Positions 19,280 through 43,319 of a stretch of DNA of 64,000 bases are shown piece by piece. The number at the start of each line of letters is the position of its first letter. Position 1 is the first letter of the stretch. Origin of the DNA: Gordonia sp. 'Campus' (GTDB taxonomy: Bacteria > Actinomycetota > Actinomycetes > Mycobacteriales > Mycobacteriaceae); assembly GCF_022206305.1 (NCBI RefSeq), contig NZ_JAKOIW010000011.1, positions 50,563 through 114,562 of the forward strand. The letters run 5' to 3'. The notes under the pieces are model-generated. The model was not told the DNA's origin, searched no databases, and saw only the letters and a list, made by a program, of their open reading frames with translations. The position numbers were made by a program, and so were the translations under genes.

Positions 19280-20941
19280 TCAGCCGGCGGACAGCAAGGT
19301 CTCGCGGAGCACCTTCTTGTCGATCTTCCCGACGGCGGTGACCGGCAGCGTCGTCACGATGCGGACCACGTCGGGGAGCTTGAACGACGCGAGTCCACGC
19401 TCGGCGAGGAACGTGCGCAGTGTCGCGAGTTCGAGCGGCTGGGCCGGCGGGTGCTCGTGGGACAGGACGACCGCGGCGCAGATCTTCTCGCCGAGGGCGT
19501 CGTCGGGGAGGCCGACCACGGCGACCTGCCGAATCGAGGTATGGGCGAGCAGGTTCTCCTCGACGTCGTCGGCCGCGACGTTCTCACCCGCCCGCACGAT
19601 GGTGTCCTTGATGCGGCCGGTCACCGCCAGATGGCCCGACGCCAGACGGGTGACCTTGTCGCCGGAGCGGTAGAAGCCCTCGGGAGTGAAGGACTTCTCG
19701 TTGTGTGCATCGGCCCGGTAGTACCCGCGAATCGTGTACGGGCCGCGAACGAGCAGCTCGCCCTCCTCGCCGTCGGGAACGTCGGCGCCGTTCTCGTCGA
19801 CGACGCGTACCTCGTCGAGCTCCGACATCGGCGCGCCCTGCACCTCGTGGATCAGCTCACGTGGGTCGTCCAGGCGGGTGTAGCAGATGAGTCCCTCGGC
19901 CATGCCGAACACCTGCTGGACGACGTCGCCGAGCGCGGCGTCGAGGGCCTCCGCGTCGGGCTGCGCCAGCTTGGCTCCGCCGACCTGCAGCAGCCGGAGC
20001 GAACTGATGTCCGCGGGCTCCCACTCGGTTGCGGCGCACCACAGCTGGGCGAGCGCAGGCACCAGGGCGGTCACGGTGATCCGATGTCGCTCGATGAGGT
20101 CGAAGGTGTTGTCCGGGCTGGGATTGTCGGCGAAGACCACGTGTCCGCCGGCGCCGAACGTTCCCAGGAGGCCGGGGCAGCAGAGTGGGAAGTTGTGGGC
20201 GGCCGGTAGCGCCACGAGGTAGGTGTCGTCCGGGCCGAGCTCCGCGATCTCCGCCGACAAACGGGCGTTGAGGTCGTAGTCGTTGTGCGTGCGCGCGATG
20301 AGTTTCGGGAGTCCGGTGGTGCCGCCGGAGACCAGGAACAGTGCGGGTAGGTCGGGGTCCGGGTCGGTCGGGAGATCGACGACGGCGGGGTCGGCGTCGG
20401 GGAGCGGGCGAAAAGCCCCGGGGTCGCCCGCCACGAACACCTGGGCGATTCCGGGCACGCGTGTCTGCAGTTCGGTTGCGAGATCGCGGAAGTCGTATCC
20501 CCGGCGGCCGTCTTCGGTGATGTACGCGACGGCGTCCGCACCGGCTGCGAGATGTGCGATCTCGGTGATCCGATGGGCGGGCAGCGTCATCACCGGGACG
20601 ATGCCCGCGCGGAGCAGTCCGAACAGCGTCACGGCGAAGTCGAGCGAATTGTTCTGCTGCAGGACGACGCGCTGTCCGGGCAGCAGCCCCGCGTCGACGA
20701 AACCGGCGGCCCGACGAGCTGTTTCCGTACGGAACTCCGCGTAGGTGAGCGTGCGAGGGCCGTCGACGGAGGCATCGGTGACGGCGGGGGCGTCCGGTGT
20801 CCGTTCGGCCACGAGATCGAGTGCGGCGAACAGGGGGCGGTCACGGAAGATGTTCGCGTCTCGGTAGAGCTGCGCCTGGGCATCGGTGTGCGGTGCGAAG
20901 CCGTCGAGCAGGTCGGTCACGGGGTCGAGGTGCGTCGGCAT
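19280..20941 (-). CDS. mbtA: Salicylate-AMP ligase (MbtA/DhbE family)
   Basis: This 553-residue stand-alone adenylation enzyme activates an aryl acid and loads it onto an aryl carrier domain. It has LVSGGTTGLPKLIARTHNDY, the aryl-acid pocket AAHNFPLCCPG, VFGMAEGLICYTRLDDP and the C-terminal lysine in TAVGKIDKK. In DhbE numbering, Asn235 is present and position 240 is Cys, the residue typical of salicylate rather than 2,3-dihydroxybenzoate enzymes. The divergent salicylate synthase agrees. ATG 20941 (MPTHLDPVTDLLDGF) is preferred over TTG 20953. An iron box lies directly upstream. Confidence 0.9.
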   Translation of the reverse strand: MPTHLDPVTDLLDGFAPHTDAQAQLYRDANIFRDRPLFAALDLVAERTPDAPAVTDASVDGPRTLTYAEFRTETARRAAGFVDAGLLPGQRVVLQQNNSLDFAVTLFGLLRAGIVPVMTLPAHRITEIAHLAAGADAVAYITEDGRRGYDFRDLATELQTRVPGIAQVFVAGDPGAFRPLPDADPAVVDLPTDPDPDLPALFLVSGGTTGLPKLIARTHNDYDLNARLSAEIAELGPDDTYLVALPAAHNFPLCCPGLLGTFGAGGHVVFADNPSPDNTFDLIERHRITVTALVPALAQLWCAATEWEPADISSLRLLQVGGAKLAQPDAEALDAALGDVVQQVFGMAEGLICYTRLDDPRELIHEVQGAPMSELDEVRVVDENGADVPDGEEGELLVRGPYTIRGYYRADAHNEKSFTPEGFYRSGDKVTRLASGHLAVTGRIKDTIVRAGENVAADDVEENLLAHTSIRQVAVVGLPDDALGEKICAAVVLSHEHPPAQPLELATLRTFLAERGLASFKLPDVVRIVTTLPVTAVGKIDKKVLRETLLSAG

Positions 20942-20959
20942 GATGCCATTCAAACACAG

Positions 20960-20978
20960 CCAGGATAGGGTAACCTTA
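20960..20978 (-). promoter_or_regulatory. Candidate IdeR box before mbtA
   Basis: On the minus strand TAAGGTTACCCTATCCTGG matches the IdeR/DmdR consensus TTAGGTTAGSCTAACCTAA at about 13 of 19 positions, with the inner GGTTA and CCT halves kept. It lies 19 bp before the mbtA ATG. Iron repression is expected. Confidence 0.6.
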
Positions 20979-21026
20979 CCGGTCGGAGCGTGTGCGTGGG
21001 GCCCGCTCTCGACCCCGGGGGGTTGG

Positions 21027-21045
21027 TTTGATTAGGCTGCCCTAA
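21027..21045 (+). promoter_or_regulatory. IdeR box before the salicylate synthase operon
   Basis: TTTGATTAGGCTGCCCTAA matches the IdeR consensus at about 15 of 19 positions. It is followed by CCTAAGATTCCCTAAGAT (21041-21058), two further half-sites in tandem. It lies 54 bp before the start codon. Confidence 0.75.
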
Positions 21046-21099: not shown

Positions 21100-22440
21100 A
21101 TGTCGCTGACAACCGAATCGCACACCGCGGAGTTCGTCGACCTGCTGGCGCCGGCGTCGCCGCTCAGCGAGTCCGACGCGGCGCGCATCACCGCCGCCTG
21201 GGCGGCCTCGGGTGAATTCGGTGATCACGTCGTCTACGAGCGCGACCGTCGCTGGACCTTTGCGGCCGGTGTCCGGGCTCGCGTCGTGATCACCCGCGGT
21301 GAGGTCATCGTCGACGACCAGGGCAACCGGACGACCACTGCTTGGCAGGGCGATCCCGCCGATGCGCTCGCCGAGGCGACCGCGTCCCTCTCGATCCCGG
21401 ACTGGCGGGTGTACGGCTGGGTGGGGTTCGATTTCTGTGCGCCCTACCACGGCATCCTCGACCGGGTTCCCGAGGACACCGTGCTCGCCCACCTCATCGT
21501 TCCCGAGTTCGAGGCCTTCGTCGACGCCGATGGCGTCGACACCGGGTCGGCCCCGTCCGATCAGGGTCGTCGACTCCTCGAGATCGCCTCCACCGCAACG
21601 GTGTCCACCCAGTCGCGACCGGTCGATGTGGGCGCCGACCCCGATGACTATCGCGGACGTGTGGCCACCGCGGTCGCCGAGATCCACGCGGGCCGGTATC
21701 AGAAGGTCATCCTCTCGCGGGCCGTGGACATCCCGTTCGAGGTCGACATCCCGGCCACCTATGTCCGCGGTCGCGCCGACAACAACCCCGCACGCAGCTA
21801 TCTGCTGTCTCTCGGCGACCTCCAGGCCGCCGGATTCAGTCCCGAACTCGTCGTCGCGGTGCATGACGACCGGACGGTCGTCACCGAACCGCTCGCCGGC
21901 ACACGCGCTTTCGGGGTCTCGGCCGAACAGGACGCGGCCGCGCGGGCAGAGCTGCTGTCGGACTCCAAGGAGATCGCCGAGCACGCGATGTCGGTGCGCG
22001 CCTGCTTCGACGAGATCGCCTCCATCGCCGCCGCGGACACCACGGCGGTCAGCGAGTTCATGGAGGTCCGCGAGCGCGGCAGCGTCCAGCACCTGGCATC
22101 GACGGTCCGTGGTGTTCTCGCCGACGACGAGACGCCCTGGCGTGCACTCGAAGTCGTGTTCCCGTCGATCACCGCCTCCGGCATCCCGAAGACGCCGGCC
22201 GTCGAGGCCATCGACCGCCTCGAGCCGCGACGTCGTGGCCTCTACTCGGGCGCCATCCTCACCGTGTCCTCCACGGGCGAACTCGAGGCAACCCTCGCGC
22301 TGCGCACGATCTTCTCCTCCGGTGCGGGCGCGTGGCTGCGTGCCGGGGCGGGGATCGTCGCGGAGTCCACGCCCGAGCGCGAGTTCACCGAGACGTGCGA
22401 GAAGCTGGGCAGCGTCGCCCCGTACGTGGTCCCGCGCTGA
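21100..22440 (+). CDS. mbtI: Salicylate synthase (MbtI type)
   Basis: This 446-residue chorismate-binding enzyme converts chorismate through isochorismate to salicylate. The family core reads KVILSRAVDIPFEVD, then FSPELVVAVHDDRTVVTEPLAGTRAFG, VQHLASTVRG and YSGAILTVSS; the EPLAGTRA and GAGIVAES parts are the magnesium and catalytic regions. GGAGGA upstream supports ATG 21100 (MSLTTESHTAEF), not the longer frame from 21064. It heads a plus-strand operon with ACP, acyl-CoA dehydrogenase and acyltransferase genes, behind an iron box. Confidence 0.94.
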   Translation: MSLTTESHTAEFVDLLAPASPLSESDAARITAAWAASGEFGDHVVYERDRRWTFAAGVRARVVITRGEVIVDDQGNRTTTAWQGDPADALAEATASLSIPDWRVYGWVGFDFCAPYHGILDRVPEDTVLAHLIVPEFEAFVDADGVDTGSAPSDQGRRLLEIASTATVSTQSRPVDVGADPDDYRGRVATAVAEIHAGRYQKVILSRAVDIPFEVDIPATYVRGRADNNPARSYLLSLGDLQAAGFSPELVVAVHDDRTVVTEPLAGTRAFGVSAEQDAAARAELLSDSKEIAEHAMSVRACFDEIASIAAADTTAVSEFMEVRERGSVQHLASTVRGVLADDETPWRALEVVFPSITASGIPKTPAVEAIDRLEPRRRGLYSGAILTVSSTGELEATLALRTIFSSGAGAWLRAGAGIVAESTPEREFTETCEKLGSVAPYVVPR

Positions 22441-22486: not shown

Positions 22487-22735
22487 ATGTCCGACCACAT
22501 CACCGAAGCCCTGCGCGGCATCCTCGAAGAGGACCTCGACCTCGCGCTCGGCGACGTCAGCCGTGACTCGCGGCTGATCGACGACCTCGGTCTGGACTCG
22601 GTGGCCTTCGCCATCGGCGTCGTGGCCATCGAGGAACGTCTCGGTGTGAAGCTGTCCGAACGCGAACTGTTCGAGTCCAAGACCGTCGGCGATCTCGAGG
22701 ACCTGATTCGTCTGAAGGCCGGCACCCCGGCCTGA
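22487..22735 (+). CDS. Acyl carrier protein (MbtL-like)
   Basis: This 82-residue carrier protein has the phosphopantetheine serine in [21 protein letters not shown]. It lies between the salicylate synthase and acyl-CoA dehydrogenase genes. In the mycobactin system MbtL carries the fatty acyl chain loaded by MbtM, desaturated by MbtN and transferred by MbtK; all three kinds of partner are encoded in this locus. CAGGAG precedes the ATG, and the next gene starts one base after the stop. Confidence 0.9.
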
Positions 22736-22736
22736 G

Positions 22737-23933
22737 ATGACCCGAACCGACATGAGCCTCGACACCGCACTGCAGTCCTACACCGAACTGCTCGACGCCG
22801 CCTTCGACGAGAAGGTCACCGCCTGGACCGAGCAGGCCGAGCGCGATCACCACTTCCCGCGCCCGCTCCTGGAACACCTGGGCGAGGCCGGTGTCTTCAC
22901 CCGCAAGTGGGAGGACCGCAAGCTCACCGATCTGCACGATCACTTCGCCCTCGGCCGCCGGCTGGGTTCGCTGGGGTCGGCGGCGATGGGTGTCGGTGTC
23001 AGCCTGCATGATTCGGCGATCGCCATCCTCCGGCGCTTCGGACGCAACGACCACCTCAAGGATCTCGCCCAGCGCGCGATGACCGCCGAGGTCGTGCTGT
23101 GCATCGGTGCCTCCGAGGAGCAGGGCGGGTCGGACCTGCAGAACTCCGAGACGCGGATCATGTCGGAGAACGGGGGCTACCGCGTCGTCGGGCACAAGAA
23201 GTTCGTGTCGCTCTCGCCGATCGCAGACCACGTGTTCGTGGTCTGCCGTGGCGTCGAGGACGGACCCGAGACCGGCGGCAACGTCGCTCTGGCCGCCGTG
23301 CCGATCGAGTCGGTGCGGGTGGGCGAGCCCTACCGGAAACTCGGCGCCGGCCCGCTGGACACCGCACCCGTCACGATCGACGCGTGGATTCCGGAGGAAG
23401 CGCTGATCGCCCGTCCCGGAACCGGATTGGCGGTCATCAGCTGGGGACTGGCGCACGAGCGGTACTCGGTGGCCGCCCAGATCGCCGCAGCCTGCGACGT
23501 CATGATCGGGGTGACGCTGGCCCGGATGATGGACCGCACACAGTTCGGTAAGCGGCTCTACGACCACCAGGCCCTCCGGCTGCGTCTCGCGGACCTGCAG
23601 GCGCGTGTGGACGTGCTGAGCTACTCACTCGACGGTGTCGCCGCCGCGGGCAAGATCAACCTCCGGACCGCGGCGGCCCTCAAGGCCACCGCGGCCAATC
23701 TCGGCGAAGAGGTCGCGTCGGAGTGCCTGCACATCTTCGGCGGGATCGGATACCTCGACACCGGTGTACCCATCGAGCGCTGGTGGCGGGACATGAAACT
23801 CGCACGGGTCGGTGGCGGCACCGACGAGGTGCTGTGGGAGCTCGTCGCGGCCGCGATGAAGCCCGACACCGAGCGCTACCAGGCCATGTTCGTCCCGACC
23901 GGGTCCACCGGTTCCGACACCCCGACGCTGTGA
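22737..23933 (+). CDS. Acyl-CoA dehydrogenase family protein (MbtN-like acyl-ACP desaturase)
   Basis: This 398-residue flavoprotein has the acyl-CoA dehydrogenase fold, with [19 protein letters not shown], the middle beta domain, and [21 protein letters not shown] in the C-terminal helical domain. The segment [14 protein letters not shown] ends the fold. Coupling to the ACP gene suggests it introduces a double bond into an ACP-bound fatty acid, as MbtN does for the mycobactin tail. The start at ATG 22737 is taken from TGAGATG; ATG 22752 is possible. Confidence 0.87.
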
Positions 23934-23961: not shown

Positions 23962-25266
23962 ATGAACAGTCCAGTCAGCGCTCCGGTCGATTCTCGCGTG
24001 ACCGAACTCGCCCGGCCCGACCACACCTACCTGCACATGGACAAAGACAGTGCGCCGATGCACTGGTCGATGATCCTGCAGCTCGACACCGAGGGCGAGT
24101 TGCTCGGTCTCGACGAGGTGCGCGCACGTGTCCGGGAGCGCGCCGGACTGTTCGACATCTTCCGCATGGGCGTGCGCAACGGGCGGTGGCGCAAACCCGA
24201 GGTCGTGCTCGCCGACGACGGGTGGGACGCAGGCCTTCACGTCACCGAGACGGGGTTCATGGATCGGGCCCACCTGCAGCGACGGGTGTCGGCGCTCCTC
24301 GAGAGCCCCTTGCCCCGCCCGCGCCCCTTCTGGGACATCACCGTGTTCACCCCGTCGGCGGGCGCGGAGGGCGTCGGCCAGTGGCTGTTGCTGCGCGTGC
24401 ACCACAGCATCTCCGACGGCATCGCGGGAGCGGCCTTCGCGGCACTGCTCGCCGACGGCGGGCCCGAGGACCTCGCCGAGTTCGAGCGGTTCGCGACGAG
24501 CCCGCGCTTCCGCATCAGCGGGATCGACCCGGAGAAGCTGACCGAGGCCAAGGCCGCCTACGGAGACCAGCACGCGGCCGGGGGAGGCAAGAAGCGTGCC
24601 TGGCCGGCGCTCACGAAGTCGGGCAAGCGCGAACACGCCCTGTACACCGCATCGACGCGAACGCTGCGCAAGGCGGCCAAGCGCAACGACGCGACGGTCC
24701 ACGAGTTCCTGCTCGCCGCCATCGGCCGTGCCATCAGCCTCAACCCGCCCGCTTCCCCCCAGGCCGATGTCGTCCGCGTGACGCTGCCCGTCACCCTCGA
24801 CGAGGAGTTCCGGCACACGGGTAACGCGGTGTCGGTCGCGCTCCTCAACCTACTCGGCAACGAACCCGACCTGTCCCGTCAGATCGACCGTGCGCGAAGC
24901 GAATTGGCGACAATCGCCGAGCGGAGGCCGGAGCTGTTCCTGGCCGCCGCCGACGACCTGCCGCGCGCGCCGGTGTGGGGCCTGCAGCGCGCCATCGTGA
25001 ACGCGTCGATGTCGCACATGCACCCCGACATCCACATCGGGATCAACCCGGGATTCTCCCGGGTGCGGTCGGTGCTGGGGAAGTCCATCGTCACCCTGAC
25101 GCCACTGTCGCCGCTGGCCGGTTACTCGCTGTCGGTGACCACCCTGATCCTCGGACACACCACCACGTTCGGCGTCGTGACCGACTCGCAGGCCCTTCCC
25201 GGTTATGCCGAGCGGTTCGTGGCGACGCTCGACGAGGTGCTTCAGGAGGCCCTCCCGTCGACCTGA
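23962..25266 (+). CDS. WS/DGAT-type acyltransferase in the siderophore operon
   Basis: This 434-residue protein belongs to the wax ester synthase/diacylglycerol acyltransferase superfamily. The active-site motif is HHSISDG (HHxxxDG), with RPFWDITVF before it and NAVSVALLNLL (the N-terminal part of the ND-type motif) after it. Such enzymes normally esterify acyl-CoA to long alcohols or diacylglycerol. Its place after ACP and acyl-ACP desaturase genes suggests a role in attaching or moving the fatty acyl chain of the siderophore, related in chemistry to condensation domains. That is inference. Start ATG 23962. Confidence 0.83.
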   Translation: MNSPVSAPVDSRVTELARPDHTYLHMDKDSAPMHWSMILQLDTEGELLGLDEVRARVRERAGLFDIFRMGVRNGRWRKPEVVLADDGWDAGLHVTETGFMDRAHLQRRVSALLESPLPRPRPFWDITVFTPSAGAEGVGQWLLLRVHHSISDGIAGAAFAALLADGGPEDLAEFERFATSPRFRISGIDPEKLTEAKAAYGDQHAAGGGKKRAWPALTKSGKREHALYTASTRTLRKAAKRNDATVHEFLLAAIGRAISLNPPASPQADVVRVTLPVTLDEEFRHTGNAVSVALLNLLGNEPDLSRQIDRARSELATIAERRPELFLAAADDLPRAPVWGLQRAIVNASMSHMHPDIHIGINPGFSRVRSVLGKSIVTLTPLSPLAGYSLSVTTLILGHTTTFGVVTDSQALPGYAERFVATLDEVLQEALPST

Positions 25267-25373: not shown

Positions 25374-26177
25374 ATGAGCAACGACGTCAACTACCAGGAC
25401 CCGTACGTGGGCGAACACCACGAACCTGACACGGGTTCGTCGCGCCGGTCGGGCGGGATCAGCATTCCCACCGTGCTTGCGTCGGCAGGCGTCGCCGCCA
25501 TCATCTCCGCGATCGTCGTCACCATCGGTGTGGTGGGCATCGTCGTGAGTGAGCGCAACGACTCCGCGAACGCCGCGCAACCGACCGTCGTCAACCTGGG
25601 TTCCGCGCAGTCAGCGCTGCCGCAGCAGGCCGTCGCCGGCCAGCAGCCGGCCGCCGCGCCGGGACAGCCCGCGCCTGCTGGTGCACCGGCACCGGCTGCG
25701 GCACCCGCCGCCGAGAACGTCCCCGAGAGCGGCGGCACCGTCGGAGCCGGACCCGCGCCCGCTCCCGCACCTGCGCCGGGCGCCACCACTGCGCCCCCGC
25801 AACAGACCGCCGCCGCGGCCGGACCGACCGCGCTGACGCCGGGACAGCTCAACACCAAGGTCAACACCGTCATGAACTCACGGGGCAGTCGCGCCGCGCG
25901 CGCCTCCGAGCTCGAGGGCGGCGAGCGGGCCCTGCGCCAGATCGACGCGGTCGCAGCGGCGATCACCACCTACGGCAACGTGGGGCTCAGCTACCAGATG
26001 GTCAACCCGGTGCAGCTCAACGGCACCACGATGACCGCACCGCTGCAGATCAGCATCGTCGGCCGCGGTAGCCAGAACCGGGCGCTCACCTGGGTCTGGA
26101 CCGGCGACAAGTGGAAGCTGTCCAACAAGAGCGTCTGCACCATCGCCGGCTTCCTCCTGCTGCCCTGCTCGCTCTGA
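25374..26177 (+). CDS. Membrane-anchored Ala/Pro-rich exported protein
   Basis: This 267-residue protein has a cytoplasmic N-tail, one membrane helix (about residues 36-60: ASAGVAAIISAIVVTIGVVG), a long Ala/Pro/Gln linker (about 78-150) and a folded C-terminal domain (NTKVNTVMNSRGSRA ... LTWVWTGDKWKLSNKSVCTI). The last part loosely resembles the domain of the mycobacterial low-molecular-weight antigen MTB12 family. GGAGAAAGAGC precedes the ATG. It lies between the siderophore operon and the binding lipoprotein, with a possible iron box, and might act in the envelope in iron uptake. That link is inference. Confidence 0.7.
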   Translation: MSNDVNYQDPYVGEHHEPDTGSSRRSGGISIPTVLASAGVAAIISAIVVTIGVVGIVVSERNDSANAAQPTVVNLGSAQSALPQQAVAGQQPAAAPGQPAPAGAPAPAAAPAAENVPESGGTVGAGPAPAPAPAPGATTAPPQQTAAAAGPTALTPGQLNTKVNTVMNSRGSRAARASELEGGERALRQIDAVAAAITTYGNVGLSYQMVNPVQLNGTTMTAPLQISIVGRGSQNRALTWVWTGDKWKLSNKSVCTIAGFLLLPCSL

Positions 26178-26226: not shown

Positions 26227-26280
26227 GTGGTTCGGGCATCTCTGACATCGAACGACACCGACAACCTGGGAGATCTTCAC

Positions 26281-27252
26281 GTGACTTCACGACATCGCCT
26301 CGGCGCGCTCATCGCGAGCGTGCTCCTGTTCGCGGGCCTGGTGGCCGGTTGTTCGAGTTCGGACGACTCGAAGGGTGGCTCGGTCCAGCTGAACCTGCCC
26401 GACGGCCGATCGGTCACCATCCCGGACACCCCGGAGCGGATCGTCACACTGGGCGATCAGTGGACCGACGTGGCGCTGTCGTTCGGCGTGACCCCGGCCG
26501 GCTACTACGACTACTCGAAGTCGGCCACCGGTGAACTGCAGCCCTGGTACGGCGAGAAGCTCGCCGACGCCACCTTCGTCGACCCGACCAAGGGCGACGA
26601 TGCGACGACCATCGCCAAGCTGAACCCGGATCTGATCTTCGCCCCGGGCTTCGCTTCCGACAGTCCCGAGTTCCAGCAGATCTCCAAGCTCGCCCCGACG
26701 GTGAACTCCGTCAGCGGACAGGAGATCGATCCCTGGCAGGACATGGTCACCGTGATGGGAACCGTGTTGCACGAGCCGGAGAAGGCGACCGAGATCATCG
26801 ACGGGACCAAGGCCAAGGTCGCCGCCGTGGGCGAGGAGTTCCCCGGGCTGAAGGGCAAGACCTACGCTTTCGCGTTCATGTACGGCAACGATCAGATCTC
26901 CGTCCTCGGTGACGAGAACGACGGTGCGGCAAAGCTGTTCACCGATCTGGGGATGAAGATGGCGCCCAAGCTGGTCGCGGAGTACCAGCGCACCGGCCAG
27001 CCGCGATTCGCGCTGAGCACCGAGAACGTCCCGATGCTCGACGCCGACGTGCTGATCATCGCGACGGCCACCCCGCAGCAGGCGGACACCCTGCGCAACC
27101 TTCCGGGTTACAAGAACCTGAAGGCCGTGCAGGACAACGCCGTCACGTTCATGACCCAGTCGCAGATCACCGGCCTCAACTCGCCGTCGCCGAACTCGAT
27201 CCCGTACGTCCTGGACCTGCTGAAGCCGTCGTTCGCGGCCGCCACCAGCTGA
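26281..27252 (+). CDS. Iron-siderophore ABC transporter substrate-binding lipoprotein
   Basis: This is a 323-residue FecB/FhuD-type periplasmic binding protein anchored by a lipobox (LLFAGLVAGC, Cys about residue 21). The mature part has TPERIVTLGDQWTDVALSFGV and IAKLNPDLIFAPG, typical of class III siderophore receptors, and ends with NSIPYVLDLLKPSF. GTG 26281 begins VTSRHRLGALIASVLLFAGL, matching the signal, rather than the longer frame from 26227. No permease or ATPase genes follow, so import must use components coded elsewhere. No clear iron box was seen directly before it. Confidence 0.9.
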   Translation: MTSRHRLGALIASVLLFAGLVAGCSSSDDSKGGSVQLNLPDGRSVTIPDTPERIVTLGDQWTDVALSFGVTPAGYYDYSKSATGELQPWYGEKLADATFVDPTKGDDATTIAKLNPDLIFAPGFASDSPEFQQISKLAPTVNSVSGQEIDPWQDMVTVMGTVLHEPEKATEIIDGTKAKVAAVGEEFPGLKGKTYAFAFMYGNDQISVLGDENDGAAKLFTDLGMKMAPKLVAEYQRTGQPRFALSTENVPMLDADVLIIATATPQQADTLRNLPGYKNLKAVQDNAVTFMTQSQITGLNSPSPNSIPYVLDLLKPSFAAATS

Positions 27253-34248: not shown

Positions 34249-36044
34249 CGACCGCCTTGAACAACAATGGGATTGGCCAACCGGTGGCCGGCGTCGATCA
34301 GGGACGCGTAGGAGTCCTCGATGTCGACCATGCGCTTGTTGTTGCGCAACTGCAGACCGTTCATGTGCACGGCGCCGAAGTCCGGCGCGAACAGATCCCA
34401 GCGGGCGAACCGGTCCTCGAGCTCGGGATGAGCGGCGACGAATTCTCGCAGGCTCTCGCCCACAAGAGACCAGAACTCGGTGTCGTCGACGATGCCGTGC
34501 GTGTGCAGGATCTCGGCCAGCGGGCGGAGGAAGTCGTCGAAGACGTCCGACAGGACCCCGAGATTGCGGATCTCGTCGGGCTCGGTGGTGCGCACCCGCG
34601 CACAGTTCTCGGGCAGACCCGCCGCCTCGCCGAAGACCGACACCTCCTCGCCGATGTCCTTGAGGATGGCGCGTACCGGGATGCCCTCGGCGAGAACGAG
34701 GATCAGGTTCTCGCCGTGCGGGCTGAACTTGAGTTCGTACCGGTAGAGCAGGTAGGCGATGGGGTGCAGGTAGGTGCGGAGGTACCGGCGGAGCCACTCG
34801 GAGGCCGGGACCCCGGACCTCTCGATGAAGGCGCCGACGAGCGGATCACCGAGGTGGTCGACGTGCAGCAGCGCCGCCATCGTCGACAACTGCTCGTCCG
34901 CGGCGACCATGGGCACCGGACTCTGACGCCAGAGCGCGGACAGGATCTTGCGATATTCCGAGCCGGGCTGGGTGATCGGGGTGAACGTCGGGCTGCGGTA
35001 ACCGATGGCCGCGACCTCGAAGATCATCTCGAACCCGATCGCGGCGAGGTACTGGTCGTCGGCGACGAGCCCTCGGACCCAGTTGTTGATCAGCGGCGTC
35101 GTCCGCATGTAGTCGGCCGACATTCCCCGCGTGAAGCCCATGTTCACGATCGACAGGGCGACCTTCACGTAGTTGCGCGACGGCGTGGTGGCGTTGAACA
35201 CCGTGCGGATCGACTGTTGAGCCTGGTACAGGTCGGGGCTCTCACCGACCTCGACGATCCGCAGGTCGGCGATGTCGGCCGAGTACAACTTCTGGACCTT
35301 CTCCGCCCACTGCCACGGATGAACCGGCAGGTACCGGTAGTCGCCGGGATCACAACCCTTGTCGCGCAGCACGTCCGCGAAAGCTTCGAGGGTGTCGACG
35401 CCCAGCTCTGCGACGAGCATGGCGTCGTAGTCGACGTCGCTGACGGTTGCGACGTCACAGTCCTCACGACGTGCGGCCAGCCATACGAGCCGGAAGTGGT
35501 TGCCGACCTCGGGGGCGTAACGCTCGATGTCGGTGGCGCTGAAGCCGAGCCGCCCGGCGTTGGCGACGATGCAGGGGTGGCCCTCGGTCATGGTCTTCTC
35601 GATGGTCTGGAAGTCCGACCGGGCGAGATCGGCAGCGGCGACGCGTCGTTCGTCGGGACGCTCGGTACTGATGGCGAGGGTGTTGATGAACTCCTCGAGA
35701 TACTCGGGCAGCGCTTGCGGACCGATGCCCAGGAGGGGGGCCAGGTCGACGATGAGTGCGATCGCGTCGAGCGGGAGGTCTTCGCCGTTCCGGACGCGGC
35801 GCAGCGACGATTCGTCGATGGCCCAGCTGTCCAACGCCAATCGCTCGGCACGGAAGCGGTACTCGGTGTGGCCGTCGACGGAGCGGACGGTATAGGTGCC
35901 GGCGCCGGTCTCGACCGGTGTGAGCGCGCGCTCGTGGGAGAACTCGGCGAGGATCTTCTTGGCGATGCGGGTGTGGTACGCCTGGCGGTACGTCGGGGGA
36001 CCCGATGCGCCGGCGGTGCGCACGGCGAATTCCTGGATGGTCAA
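34245..36044 (-). CDS. IucA/IucC family (NIS) siderophore synthetase
   Basis: This 599-residue NRPS-independent siderophore synthetase adenylates a carboxylate and joins it to an amine or hydroxylamine. Conserved parts include [52 protein letters not shown], and [16 protein letters not shown] in the ferric-iron-reductase-like C-terminal region. DesD is a relative that joins succinyl-hydroxycadaverine units. The start appears to be TTG 36044 with a GGGGGCG tract nine bases before it. Presence of an NIS enzyme within a mycobactin-type cluster is the main sign of a hybrid product. Confidence 0.92.
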
Positions 36045-36049: not shown

Positions 36050-36658
36050 TTACGCCCCCAGGTCCGTGACCTCGACGGCGCCGACGGTGCTGCCGTTGTC
36101 GGTCACTTCGAGGAAGTCGGCGCGCGTGCAGTAGCTGAGGTGTGCGGTCTTGTTGCCGACCGGGTAGTCGCCGTCGACGCGGAATCCGACACTCGCGTTC
36201 AGGCGGTGCACGGCCTTGTTGCGGACGTCGGGTTCGACGACCACGCGCGCCGCGCCGACCTCGAGGATCGCGGTCCGCATGATGTGGAGCATGACGGCGC
36301 CGGTGAAACCGGGCAGGGATTGTTCGGCATGTGCGACGAGCAGATGCATGCCGATGTCGCCGTCGGCGGGGACGTATCCGCTCGAGGGGTCGGCCAGCTC
36401 ACTCGCGGCGGGGTCGTAGAGCTCGAACAGGAACTGCGGAGCTCCGTCGTGATAGCCCAGGCGCATCCCGTACGGGGTGCCGGCGGTGGCCTCGGCGCTG
36501 TCGCGGATCATCTTCTCCACGTCGGCCACCGAGCTCTCCAGCATGTCCCAGTACTTGGCCTTGGGATGGGTGAGCCATCCGTGGACGGTCGCGGCGTGCG
36601 ACACGTCGTCGAGATCGACCGAGTGCAGGTCGTAGGTCGGGGCGGAGGAAATGGTCAT
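36050..36658 (-). CDS. GNAT acyltransferase for siderophore hydroxamate (MbtK/AlcB type)
   Basis: This 202-residue protein belongs to the siderophore acyltransferase family: [55 protein letters not shown], and [23 protein letters not shown]. It would acylate the hydroxylamine made by the N-hydroxylase, using succinyl-CoA (as in desferrioxamine synthesis) or a long acyl-ACP (as MbtK does). ATG 36658 is chosen over a longer frame that runs into the NRPS. The next gene starts within five bases. Confidence 0.87.
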
Positions 36659-36716: not shown

Positions 36717-39700
36717 TTAGCCGCGCCCGATTTCGGCTTCCACCTGTTCGTCACTGAGTTGCATGATCTCGAGGAAGGTCTCGGCGACGAAGGTCGCTCG
36801 CGTGCCGTCGAATTCGACGATCCGCTCGGCGAGGCCGGCGATGGTGCGGCGGGTGAAGACGTCGGCGACGGACAACCCGGGGGTGTCGAGCCATTGTCGC
36901 GACAGGGCGACCACCCGTGTCGCCTGTACGGAGTCGCCACCGAGGGAGATGAAGTCCTCGGTGACACTGCGCGGGGGAACCGCCAGGACCTCGCCGAAGA
37001 TCAGCGCGAGCGCCTGCTCCACCGGGGTCCGCGGCGCCACGGCATCGGCCTCGTCGTCCGTGGTGTCCGCACCGGCGGCGATCGCCTTGCGGTCGTACTT
37101 GCCGTTGGAGGTGAGCGGGAAGGCGTCCAGGATGCCGACCGATCGCGGAACCATGTGCGGCGGTAGCGCTTCGGCGACCGCATCGCGGAGTCCGGCCTCG
37201 TCAACGGTCGCTGCTTCCGTCAGGACCACGGCCGCGCGGAGGTCTCGTCCGTCCGACCAGGCCACCGCGGCGCCGACCTGGGCCAGCCCCAGCAGCGCGG
37301 CTTCGACCTCGCCGAGTTCGACACGGTAACCCCGTACCTTGACCATGTGGTCGGCCCGGCCGAGGAAGTCCAGGAATCCGCCCGGCAGGTATCGGGCCAG
37401 ATCGCCGGTGCGATACCACCTCTCGCCGTCGTGGAGTACGAAGCGGTCGGCGGTGCGGTCGGGGTCGGCCCGGTAGCCGTCGGCGACCCCCGCACCGCCG
37501 ATCCACAACTCGCCGGGGACGAGATCGGGACGGTCGCGGCCGAGGTCGTCGACCACCCGGCAGCGCACCCCGCGCAGCGGAATGCCATAGGGCACGAAGG
37601 CCATCCCGGAGGGGACGTCCGGTGCCTCGCAGATGGTGGAGTGGATCGCCGTCTCGGTGGTGCCGCCGAGACCGGCGACCCGGCAGTCCGGCAACTGCGC
37701 GGCGACGCGGTCGAGCAACGACACCTCGACCTTGTCCCCGCCCATGATGATCATGCGGAGGGAGTCGGGCAGGGGAGCGATGTCGAGGAGCATGCCGAGG
37801 ATCGACGGCACGCAGTTCAGGACACTCACCGATTGTCCGGTCAGCAGACGTGCCCAGTCGTCGACCTTGGTCCGCTCGTCGTCGCCGGGCACGACCACGG
37901 CCCCGCCGGCTGCGAGTAGTCCGAAGATGTCGAACACCGACAGGTCGAACTCCAGCGACGACACCTGCAGGCTTCGGTCGTCGGCGCCGATGGCGTACCG
38001 GTCGACCAGATCGGTGATGGTGGCCACGGCGGCGCGATGCGGGACCTCCACGCCCTTGGGCAAGCCCGTCGAACCAGAGGTGAACAGCACGTAGGCGAGC
38101 GCGTCGCTCGCCAGCTCGACGGGCTCGACGGGCTCGGATTCCCGCGCCTTGTCGAGAGTGAGAACTGTTGTGCCACTAGAGGTCTGAGTGGTGTCTCCGC
38201 TCAGGTCCCAGGCGCCGGGGGAGTCGGTGATCACCGCCGCCGGGGTCGCCACCTCGACGATGCGGTCGCGTCGTGCCTGCGGCTGGGTCGGTGCGATCGG
38301 GACGTAGGCGGCTCCGGCGGCCAGCACGCCGAGCGCTGCGACGACCTGTTCCCCGCCCTTGGGCAGGTTCACGATCACCGTGTCGCCGACGCGCACCCCT
38401 GCGGCGATGAGCGCACCGGCCACGCGACGTGCGTCGTCGGCGAGGTCGCCGTGACTCCATGTGCGGCTGTCGGTGATCACCGCCGGGTCGGCGGCACGAT
38501 CGGCGGCGTGTGCGAAGACGGTGCCGTGCAGGGTTCCGTCGAAGAGCCCGGTGGCGGGCAGCGGTGTCTCGACCGAGAGTCGTTGCGCGCGCAGGTCAGC
38601 AGACACCGGATCCGGCGCCGGTACATCCCAATCGCCGTCCACCAGCAGGCCGAGCAGGCGCACGTAGTAATCGAACATCGAACGCGCGGTACCCAATTCG
38701 AGATCGGAGGCGCGGACGTCCCAGTTGAGGAGGAGACCGCCGGCGACTTCGGTGACCTGCGCGTCGAGCAGGACCTGCGGGCCCTGCGAGACGATCCATG
38801 CGGGATCGCCGAGAACGTCGGTCGCCTGCTGCGAGAACAGATCACCGAGTCCGAGCGCACTCGTGAAGACGATCGGGGACACCACCGGTTCGCCGCGTTC
38901 GCGACTCAGCTCGCGCAGGACGTCGAGGCCGCTCATCGAGCCATGGGCCGCGGCCTCGTGCATCGACGTCCGCATCTGGCGGGCGCGTTCGGCGAGGGTC
39001 GCCCGTTCGGTCAGGTCCACGCCGATGACGAGAGAGGAGGTGAAGTCGCCGACCACCTGCTCGACGTCCGGATGGACCTGCGGGCGGTCGAACAGCGGAA
39101 CGGTGAGGAGGAAGCGTGGACTCGCCGAATGCGTGCCGACGGCCTCGGCGAACACCGCGGCGACAGCCGCTGCCGGGGTCACACCTCGACGATGTGCGTG
39201 CTCCTCGAGTCGCTTCCAGTCCGACGCTGACAGCGAGTGATGCAGACGGACGGTGTGCGGCTCGGCCTCGCCGCGCGCGGCCTTGTCGTCCAGCGGTAGT
39301 TCGGGAGGCCCGGGCATCGACGGAATCCGCTCACGCCACCAGGCGCGGTCGTCGGCGGCGACCTCGCGCGCGGTGCGATCGGCGGTGACCGCCGCGAAGG
39401 TGATTCCCAGATCGGGGAGTGTCTCACCGCGATAGAGGCGCGCGAAGTCGTCGACGAGGACGCGGTAGCTCATGGCGTCGGCGGCGATCATGTCGACGTC
39501 GAGGTGGGCCCGCGCCGAACCACCTGGCAGCAGACTCAGTTCGGCGCGGATGACCGCGCCCTCCTCGACCGGGAGGGTGCGGTGCGTACCGTGGTTGCGC
39601 TTCTCGCCCAGGATCTGCTCGACCATCTCCGGCGACTGCGTGCGGAGGTCGTGCACGGCAATGGCTTCCGGGTGTGCGGGCCCGACCTCCTGGGTGCCGT

Positions 39701-40436
39701 CGGGCAGCACCCGCACGCGTAGCATGGGGTGGCGCTCGATGAGGGCGGCCATCGCCGCCCTGAAACGGTCCGGGTCGATGTCGCGACCGTCGAACTCGAT
39801 GTAGAGGTGGGCGGCGACGTTGCCGAACGCGTGCGTGCCCGACCGGCCGATCCAGTAGGCGTGCTGCATGGGCGCGAGCGGGAAAGGCCCGTCGGGAGCG
39901 GGGGATTCGGCCCCAGGGCCGGTGGGGGCGGTTGTCTCGGTCGGGGTGCCGGTGACGATGCTCGTCCAGGCCGTGATGGTGGGTTGTGCGGCGAGACGGG
40001 CGAAGTCGACGTCGATGCCCCGTTTACGCCAGGTGCCGGCCAGTCGCATCATCCGGAGAGAGTCGAGTCCCTGGGCGATGAGGTCCGCGTCGACGTCGAC
40101 GGATTCGGGGTCGACCCCGAGGGTGGCGGCGACTTCGACGCGGACATCGGGGCCGGGGTCACCCGTGGCAGCGGTGGTCGTCTCCGTCGGGGTGCCGGTG
40201 ACGATGCTCGTCCAGGCCGTGATGGTGGGTTGTGCGGCGAGACGGGCGAAGTCGACGTCGATGCCCCGTTTACGCCATGTCCCCGCAAGTCGCATCATCC
40301 GCAGGGAGTCGAGTCCCTGGGCGATGAGGTCCTGATCCGGGTCGATCGATTCCGGCGCCACGCCTAGGACCGTGGCGACCTCGGCGACGACATCTGCCGA
40401 GGAGGTGAGGACCGTGGTCTGGGAATTCGTGGCCAT
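36717..40436 (-). CDS. mbtB: MbtB-like NRPS with tandem aryl carrier domains: ArCP-ArCP-Cy-A-PCP
   Basis: This 1239-residue synthetase starts with two nearly identical aryl carrier domains (serines of GLDSLRMM at residues 44 and 126). A cyclisation domain follows, with DMIAADAMS (DxxxxDxxS, replacing HHxxxDG). An adenylation domain has [17 protein letters not shown] and [10 protein letters not shown], and a carrier domain has LGGDSVQA near residue 1170. No thioesterase is fused. It would make a 2-hydroxyphenyl-oxazoline or thiazoline from salicylate and Ser, Thr or Cys. ATG 40436 is downstream of the iron boxes, which excludes the longer frame to 40565. Confidence 0.92.
39940..40277 (-). repeat. 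92-bp exact repeat within the duplicated aryl carrier domains
   Basis: The 92-bp stretches 39940-40031 and 40186-40277 are identical and lie 246 bp (82 codons) apart in the same frame. They encode the C-terminal half of each aryl carrier domain. Flanking parts of the two domains differ by synonymous and conservative changes, so the exact block suggests recent duplication or gene conversion. Confidence 0.93.
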
Positions 40437-40499
40437 CAGCCGGCGTGCCTCTCGCAGTTCGGGGACATTCTTACTCAGGCTGGGGAACCCGCATTTAGG

Positions 40500-40518
40500 G
40501 TAGGTTATACTAACTACC
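40500..40518. promoter_or_regulatory. IdeR box, NRPS side of the divergent promoter region
   Basis: GTAGGTTATACTAACTACC matches about 12 of 19 consensus positions and is itself symmetrical (GTAGGTTA/TAACTAC). It is 64 bp before the NRPS start. The region 40437-40812 between NRPS and acyl-AMP ligase genes holds this and two more iron boxes. Confidence 0.65.
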
Positions 40519-40571
40519 CGCTCCGCCCAATCCTTGGGCATCGCCGTCAGGCTTCCCCCTCGCAACGAAAA

Positions 40572-40590
40572 TTAGGTTAGCCTAAGTTCT
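40572..40590. promoter_or_regulatory. IdeR box, middle of the divergent promoter region
   Basis: TTAGGTTAGCCTAAGTTCT matches the IdeR consensus at about 15 of 19 positions, with the first 14 bases identical to it. It could serve either divergent operon. Confidence 0.78.
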
Positions 40591-40659
40591 CGCGAGTGGT
40601 CTCATCGGATGACATGAATCACGCACGCTCCTCGACGGGCGTCGGGTCTTGTGCCCGAG

Positions 40660-40678
40660 AAAGATTAGGCTACCCTAC
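40660..40678 (+). promoter_or_regulatory. IdeR box, acyl-AMP ligase side
   Basis: AAAGATTAGGCTACCCTAC matches about 14 of 19 consensus positions, keeping the TTAGGCTA core. It lies about 135 bp before the acyl-AMP ligase start. Confidence 0.7.
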
Positions 40679-40812
40679 CCAAATAGAGCGAACGCTTCTG
40701 TTCGCGATACCGGCGGTCGGGGACGGCACGCGGTATGACCCATCCGGTCTCGACCCAGACCGGACATCAACCAGTAGACCGACGCCACGGGTTGGCGAAG
40801 ACGGGAACGAGA

Positions 40813-42462
40813 ATGTCGCAGAACAGCGTGATCCTGGAGGAAGCGGGCTCGACCAATGCATTGGCGGCCACCGTGCGTGAGGCGATGCTGGCCGGAGACA
40901 CCAGCCTCTCCGTCCTGGATTCCGACACGGGCGAATGGGTGACGGCGCCCTGGCGTGAGGTGCATGCACGCGCCGAGCAGATCGCGGTCCAGTTGCTCGC
41001 CGACAGCGAGCTGCACGAGCCCCAGGCGCTGGGACTGATCGGGGACCCCACCGTCGACCTGATCGCCGCGATCCAGGGAGCCTGGCTCGCCGGGGTGCCC
41101 GTCAGCATCCTTCCCGGTCCGATCCGCGGCGCCGATGAGGAGCGTTGGGCGCAGAACACCTACACCCGCTTCATCTCCATCGGGGTGGGGACGGTGTTGG
41201 GCAGCGGCACGCAACTCGACCTGTTGTCGAAGGTCGAGGACCGCCTGCGCATCGCACGCGTCGGTGAATACGGTCTCGGCGCCGACACCACCGACTTCGT
41301 CGCCCGTAACGTCAACGGCAACACCGTCGCCGTCCTGCAGGGCACGGCCGGTTCCACCGGCGACCCGAAGACCGCCGTGCTGCCCGCCTCCGCCGTCTAC
41401 TCCAACGCCATCGAACTGGTCAGTCGCCTCGGCCTGCACCGCACGCGCGACACCGGGTTCAGCTGGCTGCCGCTTTACCACGACATGGGCCTCATGTTCC
41501 TGTTGGCCGGGATGACGACGGGTATCTCGACCTACATCGTTCCGAACACCGCGTTCGCGGCTGCGCCGTTCAAGTGGATGCAGTGGCTCACCGAGACCAA
41601 GACGACCGTCACCGCTGCACCCAACTTCGCCTACGACATCCTCGGTCGATACGGAAAGTTGTTGCGCGACATCGACCTGTCGCATCTGCGGGTCGCCATC
41701 AGCGGCGGTGAGCCGATCGACGCCGACGCGTTCGACAAGTTCCTCGAGGCGACCGCCCCGTTCGGTTTCGAGCGCGCGGCCGCGGCCCCCGCGTACGGCA
41801 TGGCCGAGTCCGCCTGTGCGGTCACGATGCCCGCGGTCGGCGAGGGCGCACACTACGACGAGGTCAGTGTCACCCCGCCCGGTGGCGGTGAGCCCATCCG
41901 TCGTCGCTACGCGATTCTCGGAAAGCCGCTGGGCGGCATGCAGGTTCGCATCGTCGAACCCAACGTCGACGTGCCGGTGATCGACGGGCGCAACGTCGGT
42001 CACGTGGAGATCCGCGGCACCTCGATGATGCGCGGTTACCTCGGCAACGCCGACCTCGGTCCGGGTGAATGGTTCTCGACCGGCGACCTCGGTTACCTCG
42101 TGGACGACCGTCTCGTGATCTGTGGCCGGGCCAAGGAGGTCATCATCGTCGCGGGACGCAACCTGTTCCCGATCGAGATCGAGCGCGCCGCGGCCGAGGT
42201 CGCCGGTGTGCGACGCGGCGGCGTCGTCGCCATGGCGCGCGGCGAGGGGTCGGCTCGTCCGGGCCTGGTCATCCTCGCCGAGTACAAGGGCGCCGATCCC
42301 GACAAGGCCCGCGCAGAGGTCAATTCGGAGGTCGCCTCCGCGTGCGGGATCATGCCGGCCGAGGTCATCTTCGTCGCGCCAGATTCTGTCCCGCGCACCA
42401 CATCGGGGAAGATCCGTCGCCTCGAGACCCGGCAGATGGTCGAGAACGGCACCTTCGCATAG
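40813..42462 (+). CDS. Fatty acyl-AMP ligase (MbtM-like)
   Basis: This 549-residue ligase of the FAAL type has VAVLQGTAGSTGDPKTAV, FSWLPLYHDMGLMFLLAGM, YGMAESACAVTMPA, the hinge WFSTGDLGYLVDDRLVICGRAKE and the C-terminal lysine in RTTSGKIRRLE. It would activate a fatty acid and load it on the acyl carrier protein in the plus-strand operon, as MbtM loads MbtL. ATG 40813 (MSQNSVILEEAGS) follows a GGGAACGAG tract; the longer frame from 40735 is less likely. Iron boxes upstream indicate iron repression. Confidence 0.9.
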   Translation: MSQNSVILEEAGSTNALAATVREAMLAGDTSLSVLDSDTGEWVTAPWREVHARAEQIAVQLLADSELHEPQALGLIGDPTVDLIAAIQGAWLAGVPVSILPGPIRGADEERWAQNTYTRFISIGVGTVLGSGTQLDLLSKVEDRLRIARVGEYGLGADTTDFVARNVNGNTVAVLQGTAGSTGDPKTAVLPASAVYSNAIELVSRLGLHRTRDTGFSWLPLYHDMGLMFLLAGMTTGISTYIVPNTAFAAAPFKWMQWLTETKTTVTAAPNFAYDILGRYGKLLRDIDLSHLRVAISGGEPIDADAFDKFLEATAPFGFERAAAAPAYGMAESACAVTMPAVGEGAHYDEVSVTPPGGGEPIRRRYAILGKPLGGMQVRIVEPNVDVPVIDGRNVGHVEIRGTSMMRGYLGNADLGPGEWFSTGDLGYLVDDRLVICGRAKEVIIVAGRNLFPIEIERAAAEVAGVRRGGVVAMARGEGSARPGLVILAEYKGADPDKARAEVNSEVASACGIMPAEVIFVAPDSVPRTTSGKIRRLETRQMVENGTFA

Positions 42463-42512
42463 GTCCGAATTTTTCCGTGGTGCATCGTGTCCTGCCGATG
42501 GCCACGAGAATG

Positions 42513-42555
42513 ACAGTGCCTCTTCGGCCCGGTCGCCGGGCCGGAGAGGCACTGT
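42513..42555. terminator. 20-bp hairpin between acyl-AMP ligase and SIP genes
   Basis: A near-perfect stem pairs 42513-42532 (ACAGTGCCTCTTCGGCCCGG) with 42536-42555, one G-U pair and a three-base loop. It ends seven bases before the ribosome site of the next gene. It may be a terminator, or an attenuator separating the SIP gene from the iron-controlled operon. Confidence 0.65.
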
Positions 42556-42572
42556 AGAGAGAGGAAGTGCAC

Positions 42573-43319
42573 ATGAGCGACACGTCGACGAAGGGCCGCG
42601 GCTGGCAGGGCGCGGTCATGAAGCTGATGGGCGCCGACGACTACACGTTCACGGTGACCGGAACCGAGTCCGTGACGGATCACTATCTGCGCCTTCGCTT
42701 CAACGGTGGCGGACTGCTCACCGATCGTGCCCCGCACCCGACGATGTGGGTGCGGCTCTGGTTCGCCGACGGCGGCAAGATGCACCAGCGCGGATACACC
42801 CTCGTCGACCCGGACCCAGCATCGGACTCGTTCGACATCGAGTTCGCCATCCACGACGGTACGGCGGCACGGTGGGCCCAGCGGGCGCAGGCGGGAGACA
42901 CCGTCGGCGCAACCCTGATGGGCTCCAAGTTCGCGGTGCCCGATCCGGCGCCTGCCGGCTGGCTCATCGCCGGGGACACCGCGTCGCTGCCCGCCATCAA
43001 CTCACTCCTCGACTCCCTGGGTCCGGCGTCGCCCGCGGCGACCGTCTGGTTCGAGTACCAGCACGAGAGCGACAAGTCGTTGCCGCTGCGCGCCCGCGAA
43101 CAGGACACCGTCCACTGGATCCCGCGCGAGCGCAACGGTGCGGCGCTGGTCGACGCAGTCCGCGACGGGGTCTTCGACGCCTCGGACCACTTCGGCTGGG
43201 TCGCACTGGATTCGGCGAGCACCCGCGCTGTCGCCGGGCTGTTCAAGGGTGAGTACAGGCTGCCGAAGAAGTCGGTCAAGTCCCAGGCGTACTGGATCGA
43301 GGGCAAGTCGTTCGCCTGA
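42573..43319 (+). CDS. Siderophore-interacting protein (SIP), ferric-siderophore reductase
   Basis: This 248-residue flavoprotein of the ViuB/SIP family releases iron from ferric siderophores by reduction in the cytoplasm. The FAD-binding domain has VTDHYLRLRFNGGGLL and HQRGYTLVDPDP (RxYT). The C-terminal NAD(P)H domain starts WLIAGDTASLPAINSLLDSL and ends VKSQAYWIEGKS. GAGAGGAAG precedes ATG 42573. It closes the siderophore locus and has no iron box of its own, only a strong hairpin upstream, so its control may differ from that of the biosynthetic genes. Confidence 0.92.
   Translation: MSDTSTKGRGWQGAVMKLMGADDYTFTVTGTESVTDHYLRLRFNGGGLLTDRAPHPTMWVRLWFADGGKMHQRGYTLVDPDPASDSFDIEFAIHDGTAARWAQRAQAGDTVGATLMGSKFAVPDPAPAGWLIAGDTASLPAINSLLDSLGPASPAATVWFEYQHESDKSLPLRAREQDTVHWIPRERNGAALVDAVRDGVFDASDHFGWVALDSASTRAVAGLFKGEYRLPKKSVKSQAYWIEGKSFA

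Follow-up and report, generated by a model that had tools for sequence, protein, structure and literature searches.

A predicted nocardichelin-type hybrid siderophore gene cluster in Gordonia sp. 'Campus'

Introduction

Genes of the mycobactin type and genes of the desferrioxamine type lie side by side in a 64,000-nucleotide stretch of the genome of Gordonia sp. 'Campus' (positions 50,563 to 114,562 of contig NZ_JAKOIW010000011.1; hereafter "the window"), which raises the question of whether the two sets cooperate to make a single siderophore and, if so, which enzyme would carry out each of the steps. We assign with good confidence the 16 genes at positions 19280-43319 of the window to a nocardichelin-type cluster, in which a nonribosomal peptide synthetase (NRPS) is combined with an NRPS-independent siderophore (NIS) synthetase and which appears to be iron-repressed. 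The product is very probably a fatty iron-scavenging molecule, one half of which is of mycobactin and the other of desferrioxamine. The cluster is not new in kind, given that nocardichelins and their gene cluster were already described in 2025; indeed, Fisk et al. reportedly described nocardichelin biosynthesis in that year. The locus is instead a well-formed new example, and what we add here is a conserved core, a likely role of an acylase, tandem aryl carrier proteins (ArCPs), and a sister class of clusters.

Probable assignment of the cluster to nocardichelin biosynthesis

Seven genes are read leftward from the promoter of the NRPS gene: namely, those for the NRPS, a GNAT acyltransferase, an IucA/IucC-type NIS synthetase, an acylase, a stand-alone condensation (C) protein, a decarboxylase, and an N-hydroxylase. 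Four of the six junctions in this set overlap, with the first two leaving 58 and 5 bases between the genes (refined starts), and the set would constitute one co-transcribed operon. An initial annotation, made from the sequence of the window, had read the locus as a salicyl/hydroxamate hybrid, to be abandoned if the decarboxylase and the NIS synthetase belonged to another pathway. Because these two genes, together with those for the hydroxylase and GNAT, share an apparent operon with the NRPS gene, a separate pathway is spoken against, and the hybrid reading is strengthened. Also, all the mycobactin-type parts named in that annotation (salicylate synthase, salicylate-AMP ligase, NRPS, acyl carrier protein (ACP), fatty acyl-ACP ligase (FAAL), and acyl-ACP dehydrogenase) were recovered by profile scans, and all the desferrioxamine-type parts (pyridoxal phosphate (PLP)-dependent decarboxylase, N-hydroxylase, IucA/IucC synthetase, and hydroxamate acyltransferase) by Pfam scans. 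Its list did not contain the acylase, the stand-alone C protein, a protein with the fold of wax synthase/diacylglycerol acyltransferase (WS/DGAT), or the periplasmic binding, membrane/lipoprotein-like, and siderophore-interacting proteins.

The NIS synthetase, the sole gene of this kind in the genome at E ≤ 1e-3, has NcdF as its best match in the PDB with DesD as the next best (Table 1); its closest relative is hence not a DesD-type synthetase. The prefix of NcdF presumably stands for nocardichelin. In 1822 plasmid records, the matches to the synthetase were all below 60% identity. The cluster of Gordonia rubripertincta CWB2 is considered in PMC12161575 to be consistent with nocardichelin biosynthesis, and nocardichelins have been obtained from Gordonia (PMC6467163), both of which support the nocardichelin-like product proposed in the initial annotation. 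Indeed, when salicylate, Ser, two N-hydroxycadaverines, succinate, and a 14:1, 16:1, or 18:1 fatty acid are combined with the loss of six waters, the calculated formulas are C38H61N5O8, C40H65N5O8, and C42H69N5O8 ([M+H]+ of 716.459, 744.491, and 772.522), and exactly these formulas are reported from Gordonia sp. Berg02-22.2 for nocardichelins B and A plus one congener that had not been described (PMC6467163).

A pathway can accordingly be drawn up with a candidate for each step. Salicylate synthase and the ligase would load salicylate on an ArCP of the NRPS, the adenylation (A) domain would load Ser (or, less likely, Thr), and the cyclization (Cy) domain would form a 2-hydroxyphenyl-oxazoline. 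The decarboxylase and hydroxylase would produce N-hydroxycadaverine (or its putrescine analogue), which GNAT is proposed to succinylate to N-hydroxy-N-succinylcadaverine (HSC). Part of the HSC may then be de-succinylated by the acylase to free N-hydroxycadaverine for lipid capping, a step to which we give an even chance. The FAAL would activate a fatty acid, the ACP would carry the acyl chain, and the MbtN-like dehydrogenase would desaturate it before the WS/DGAT-fold protein sets it on the freed hydroxylamine. Finally, the NcdF-like synthetase would couple HSC, through its carboxylate, to the lipid-capped unit at its free amine, and the stand-alone C protein would, fairly probably, move the aryl-oxazoline from the peptidyl carrier protein (PCP) to the remaining free amine, where these last two steps could occur in either order. 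The iron ligands would be the phenol-oxazoline and two hydroxamates.

Predicted head group and building blocks

The initial annotation had noted Cys at position 240 (DhbE numbering) of the salicylate-AMP ligase, and the motif containing it is indeed HNFPLCCPG. The corresponding motif is HNFPMSSPG in the dihydroxybenzoate (DHB) ligase 6e8o and HNFALACPG in the salicylate ligase 5wm2; Asn235 and Cys240 of our ligase thus match the latter, unlike the former. A third ligase with Cys at this position, 5kei, is labeled by its depositors as a DHB ligase, while we take it to be an MbtA.

The NRPS had been described as ArCP-Cy-A-PCP, of which the carrier, the Cy (with a DxxxxDxxS motif), A, and PCP parts stand, but three stretches of the PP-binding family were detected, and the protein begins with two tandem ArCPs rather than one. 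Two ArCP motifs were found in the NRPSs of G000, G117, G192, and L034 (Gordonia paraffinivorans), while a single motif was present in L033 (Gordonia amicalis) and in the remaining NRPSs with an N-terminal site detectable by the motif search; six NRPSs gave no match at all in this search. In a comparison of four genomes, 56-65 of 85 residues agree between the two copies of one genome and 48-63 of 85 between equivalent copies of different genomes, so that the ranges overlap; the pattern would be accounted for by gene conversion or by repeated duplication. The proteins scanned at 13.6-49.7 kb of the window include neither a polyketide synthase nor a second multidomain NRPS, and the absence of mbtC-F, as annotated initially, holds for that stretch.

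Aligned to PchE, which is specific to cysteine, the A domain has the signature D-L-F-N-I-G-L-I-H (GrsA positions) in place of D-L-F-N-L-S-L-I-W and differs at three positions. The residues I, G, and H are shared with a Thr code, and the changes point away from Cys and, by this kind of code, toward a hydroxy amino acid. While either an oxazoline or a thiazoline had been considered for the head group, the oxazoline is retained; a thiazoline is disfavored because the signature departs from that of PchE and the formulas reported in PMC6467163 contain no sulfur.

It is unlikely, though worth weighing, that the same architecture uses another building block, namely Thr to give a methyl-oxazoline and/or N-hydroxyputrescine, so that the product would be a nocardichelin congener but not nocardichelin A or B. 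The three residues in common with the Thr code would fit this, as would the score of the putrescine N-hydroxylase 7us3, which is close to that of the desferrioxamine hydroxylase (Table 1), and cadaverine can be taken only as the probable diamine. The formulas reported from Gordonia are, however, fitted by Ser, two cadaverines, and even-chain acids (PMC6467163).

Proposed roles of the acylase, the WS/DGAT-fold protein, and the stand-alone C protein

The catalytic motifs of these three proteins are intact in sequence, and their roles may already be settled in the work of Fisk et al. In the acylase, the GSNAW motif is kept in 23 of 23 aligned rows, and its best PDB match is 35sz, after which glutaryl-7-ACA acylase and D-succinylase are the closest solved enzymes. 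In PMC12161575, DesG is proposed to remove succinate from HSC and thereby supply N-hydroxycadaverine for acetylation by DesH, and CWB2 is noted to have desG without desH. Among 394 genomes of the class, an acylase was detected at E ≤ 1e-100 in 12, eight of which are outside the host family (Mycobacteriaceae). Six of these eight loci were fetched; GNAT adjoins the acylase in five and a desABCD-like set is also present in three, which parallels the neighborhood of desG and desH. At E ≤ 1e-80, 22 of 59 Gordonia genomes have the acylase; in one Gordonia genome (G272, locus L098), the match is in two pieces, one of which has an in-frame TGA.

Alternatively, the acylase might not recycle HSC but act like PvdQ in trimming the lipid off a finished precursor, or break the ferri-siderophore as a degrading hydrolase. 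We consider this doubtful. It belongs to the penicillin-amidase family and does match the PvdQ model, but weakly (22 bits against a cut-off of 950), and the relatives named above, both the solved enzymes after 35sz and those beside GNAT and des genes, do not fit such a role. Periplasmic maturation is further disfavored by the lack of a signal-like hydrophobic stretch, as judged from hydropathy with no dedicated signal-peptide predictor run (the highest 15-residue mean near the N-terminus is 1.0, compared with 2.6 for the binding lipoprotein). Furthermore, the nocardichelins reported in PMC6467163 retain the chain.

The scheme of the initial annotation named no enzyme for the amide between the aryl group and the diamine. 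The stand-alone C protein, in which HHxxxD is present in 23 of 23 rows and which is modeled with the fold of NRPS C domains, would be the only candidate within the cluster, and we regard this role as fairly probable. As for the fatty acid, the gene for the WS/DGAT-fold protein lies near that for the ACP, and HHxxxDG is present in 20 of 20 rows. Its structural model best matches bacterial wax synthase/DGATs, one of which was crystallized with myristic acid; NRPS C domains match as well, because the fold is common to both. With slightly less confidence than for the C protein, we favor this protein as the most economical capping partner, which would put the fatty acyl chain on the hydroxylamine.

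Predicted iron control

The 64-kb window was scanned on the top strand with the 19-base consensus of IdeR/DmdR, and 20 mononucleotide shuffles were used as a control. While no match was found in the window at three or fewer mismatches, all six sites with at most five mismatches fall in the two divergent promoters of the cluster (Table 1); in the shuffles, the mean number of sites was 0.0 at four mismatches and 0.15 at five. The site at 40495 is upstream of the NRPS gene only with the start at 40436, not with that at 40541. The comparison was extended to 23 loci (the window, 20 genomes of the host family, and two named Gordonia contigs), and at least one such site was present in 22. No site was found inside the best match of any of the 16 query genes in these loci (more than 60 bases from the ends; other genes there are unannotated). 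The cluster would thus appear to be iron-repressed.

Distribution of the cluster and a sister class

In a sample of 251 host-family genomes including that of the present strain, the C protein (E ≤ 1e-36), the acylase (>500 bits), and the NcdF-like synthetase (≥58% identity) co-occur in the same 22 genomes. Another 17 have only a synthetase of 39-46% identity and neither the C protein nor the acylase at these cut-offs. Of the genomes beyond these 22, eight match the C protein weakly (E of 1e-20 to 1e-30, 26-29% identity, long frames) and one (G166) has a distant acylase (29%); in the class sample, the C protein was found at E ≤ 1e-36 in four of the 394 genomes, all in the host family. Loci were fetched for 20 of the 22 genomes, leaving out our own and the fragmented G200. 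GNAT, synthetase, acylase, C protein, decarboxylase, and hydroxylase are together in all 20, and ACP and WS/DGAT are present in 19; the exception is G117, the locus of which ends at a contig edge. Orthologous loci in Gordonia lacunae, G. amicalis, and G. paraffinivorans agree with the guess in the initial annotation that the DNA comes from Gordonia.

In terms of the NRPS, the fetched loci can be divided into those with a protein of 61-80% identity (type 1; 12 of 20) and those with one of 44-46% (type 2; five of 20: G012, G038, G129, G172, and G074). G048 and G144 have an NRPS of 46-47% together with a carrier-Cy piece of 59-60%, and G031 could not be typed because the stretch ends. In G048 (L058, 8779-10929), the carrier-Cy piece without A-PCP is in one open frame with GNAT, and the second NRPS, of 46%, is nearby.

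The loci with type 2 likely differ in the head group. G038 has an additional stand-alone C protein after the NRPS, and ORFs of similar size and start are found in G129 and G012; an A domain and a dehydrogenase resembling PigA/RedW (186 bits, cut-off 500) are also present in G038. A protein designated J has HHxxxDE, not DD or DG, in the seven loci with an NRPS of 44-47%. In the aryl ligases of G012, G038, G172, and G031, His234 is replaced by Phe while Asn235 and Cys240 are kept, and the aryl acid may therefore be one related to salicylate. No salicylate synthase was detected at E ≤ 1e-40 in four of the five type-2 genomes, while G074 has one. These sister loci would possibly represent an undescribed class of siderophores, as far as can be said with no literature search aimed at them. 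More tentatively, and at somewhat less than even chance, GNAT, NcdF-like synthetase, DesG-type acylase, C protein, decarboxylase, hydroxylase, ACP, and WS/DGAT might constitute a fixed lipid-hydroxamate chassis in the host family, on which aryl/NRPS heads are varied to give at least one further hybrid class beyond salicyl-oxazoline, and in which the acylase and WS/DGAT form a capping pair with WS/DGAT replacing the acetyltransferase DesH.

Weighing of the assignment

Several points weigh against our assignment. The product of this strain is predicted from its genes and the formula match, and the roles of the acylase, the WS/DGAT-fold protein, and the C protein are proposed ones; the choice between Ser and Thr depends on a specificity code; and several models (MbtN, TIGR02946, and TIGR02275) scored below their cut-offs. 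The hydroxylase scores 309 bits to the desferrioxamine hydroxylase and 299 to the putrescine hydroxylase, so the diamine could be putrescine, and a hydroxylase of CWB2 is said to be named putrescine N-hydroxylase in the title of a paper. One locus (G055) has no iron-box-like site with at most five mismatches, and one of the six acylase relatives outside the host family (L111) has neither GNAT nor des genes nearby. Also, CWB2, which is said to have a homologous locus, makes desferrioxamines E, B, and G1 and bisucaberins (PMC7262544). In the accessible text of that source, the ions of CWB2 include none at 716, 744, or 772, most desferrioxamine-like ions are unidentified, and the word nocardichelin is absent; nocardichelin output in CWB2 is not demonstrated there. 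The present cluster may therefore yield desferrioxamines too.

That the locus holds two neighboring pathways, the NIS genes making desferrioxamines/bisucaberin only and the salicylate, NRPS, and lipid genes a separate small salicyl product, would agree with this output of CWB2 and with the sufficiency of decarboxylase, hydroxylase, GNAT, and synthetase for desferrioxamine E (pathway per PMC12161575), but it is quite improbable given the shared operon, a synthetase that resembles NcdF much more closely than DesD, and the lack of C protein and acylase, at the cut-offs used, in the 17 genomes with only a synthetase of 39-46%, and desferrioxamines as side products are compatible with a nocardichelin-type cluster as well.

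Gene organization and flanks

Genes were called by GC-frame analysis and Pfam/NCBIfam scans with the starts refined afterward, since several of the mechanical open reading frame (ORF) starts were spurious 5' extensions. The host contig is 221 kb in a genome of 5.1 Mb. In the left arm of the cluster, the salicyl-AMP ligase gene diverges from those for salicylate synthase, ACP, MbtN-like dehydrogenase, and WS/DGAT-like, membrane, and periplasmic binding proteins; in the right arm, the NRPS gene diverges from those for the MbtM-type FAAL and the siderophore-interacting protein.

Table 1. Features of the cluster (window coordinates, refined starts) and sister loci. Ntn, N-terminal nucleophile; pLDDT, predicted local distance difference test.
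Feature	Position	Strand	Evidence
Salicyl-AMP ligase (MbtA-like), Asn235/Cys240 (DhbE numbering)	19280..20941	-	PF00501; PDB 5kei 552, 5wm2 539 bits
Divergent promoter, two iron-box-like sites: 20960 (5 mismatches), 21027 (4 mismatches)	20960..21045		IdeR/DmdR consensus
Salicylate synthase; alternative start GTG 21064	21100..22440	+	TIGR03494 486 bits, cut-off 325
Stand-alone ACP (MbtL-like)	22487..22735	+	PF00550
Acyl-ACP dehydrogenase, MbtN-like	22737..23933	+	PF00441; best model MbtN NF037942 583 bits, cut-off 700
WS/DGAT-fold acyltransferase, HHSISDG	23962..25266	+	PF03007 43.8 bits; TIGR02946 88 bits (cut-off 310); model pLDDT 83.6, best folds 6chj, 7nxg
Membrane/lipoprotein-like protein	25374..26177	+	no Pfam family; NF053527 55 bits, below cut-off 105
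Iron-siderophore periplasmic binding lipoprotein	26227..27252	+	PF01497
Diamine N-hydroxylase (DesB-like)	27535..28854	-	PF13434; PDB 6xbb 328, 5o8p (desferrioxamine) 309, 7us3 (putrescine N-hydroxylase) 299, MbtG 168 bits
PLP diamine-forming decarboxylase (DesA-like)	28851..30470	-	PF00282; PDB 2qma 241, 5o5c (desferrioxamine) 236 bits
Stand-alone C protein, HHLAVDD	30467..31930	-	PF00668 77.9 bits; model pLDDT 83.3, best folds NRPS C domains
DesG-type penicillin-amidase acylase, Ntn serine motif GSNAW	31918..34248	-	PF01804 482 bits; PDB 35sz 658, 4hsr 222, D-succinylase 127 bits
NIS synthetase (IucA/IucC), NcdF-like	34245..36044	-	PF04183; PDB 9nom NcdF 865 bits, DesD 573
GNAT hydroxylamine acyltransferase (DesC-like; proposed succinyl transfer)	36050..36658	-	PF13523
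NRPS ArCP-ArCP-Cy-A-PCP; alternative start 40541	36717..40436	-	PF00550 x3, PF00668, PF00501, PF13193; Cy motif; A signature
Tandem ArCP segments of NRPS	39906..40421	-	205/270 bases alike, 92-base identical run
Divergent promoter, four iron-box-like sites (40495, 40572, 40660, 40665; last two overlap)	40495..40683		IdeR/DmdR consensus
FAAL, MbtM type	40735..42462	+	NF004510 713 bits, cut-off 621
Siderophore-interacting protein (ferric reductase-like)	42567..43319	+	PF04954, PF08021
Sister hybrid NIS-NRPS loci	L063 793-16272 (G038); L061; L065/L066; L069/L070; L071/L072		44-46% NRPS

The cluster is flanked on one side by a thiD-like gene with a thiamine pyrophosphate riboswitch (18529-18643; region 17597-18643) and on the other by a block of Exo_endo_phos, Rv0428c-like, deformylase, DUF3263, LytR_C, SodC, and GCS2 genes (43327-49671), the order of which presumably resembles that of Rv0427c-Rv0433 in Mycobacterium tuberculosis. 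The cluster is apparently an insertion into a conserved backbone. Farther away, ARAGORN placed a tRNA-Ala (cgc) at 60790-60875, opposite the frame of a CDC48-like AAA ATPase (60553-63354), which is possibly a false positive.

Comparison with known systems

By description, not gene by gene, the cluster resembles the ncd/CWB2 locus in its NcdF-like synthetase, in mycobactin-like salicylate synthase and NRPS beside desferrioxamine-type genes, in desG without desH, and in the predicted formulas. With the mycobactin/nocobactin clusters, it shares salicylate synthase, salicyl-AMP ligase, a carrier-Cy-A-PCP NRPS, ACP, MbtM-type FAAL, and MbtN-like dehydrogenase; unlike them, it lacks mbtC-F, its hydroxamate half would be made by an NIS synthetase, and its hydroxylase is DesB-like, not MbtG-like (328 versus 168 bits). 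With desABCD and desGH, it has in common the decarboxylase, hydroxylase, GNAT, NIS synthetase, and DesG-type acylase, whereas no second GNAT (desH) was found in the cluster, the WS/DGAT-fold protein, ACP, FAAL, and NRPS are present, and the synthetase is closer to NcdF than to DesD.

In conclusion, the locus provides a complete and contiguous example from Gordonia of the NRPS-NIS hybrid class of siderophore clusters, in which each step can be given a candidate enzyme. Two questions become testable: the reason for a hydrolytic acylase alongside the pathway in every host-family genome found with an NcdF-like synthetase, and the identity of the enzyme that attaches the fatty acid. The comparison among genomes points to a group of lipid hydroxamate siderophores that is modular, with head groups that can be exchanged.

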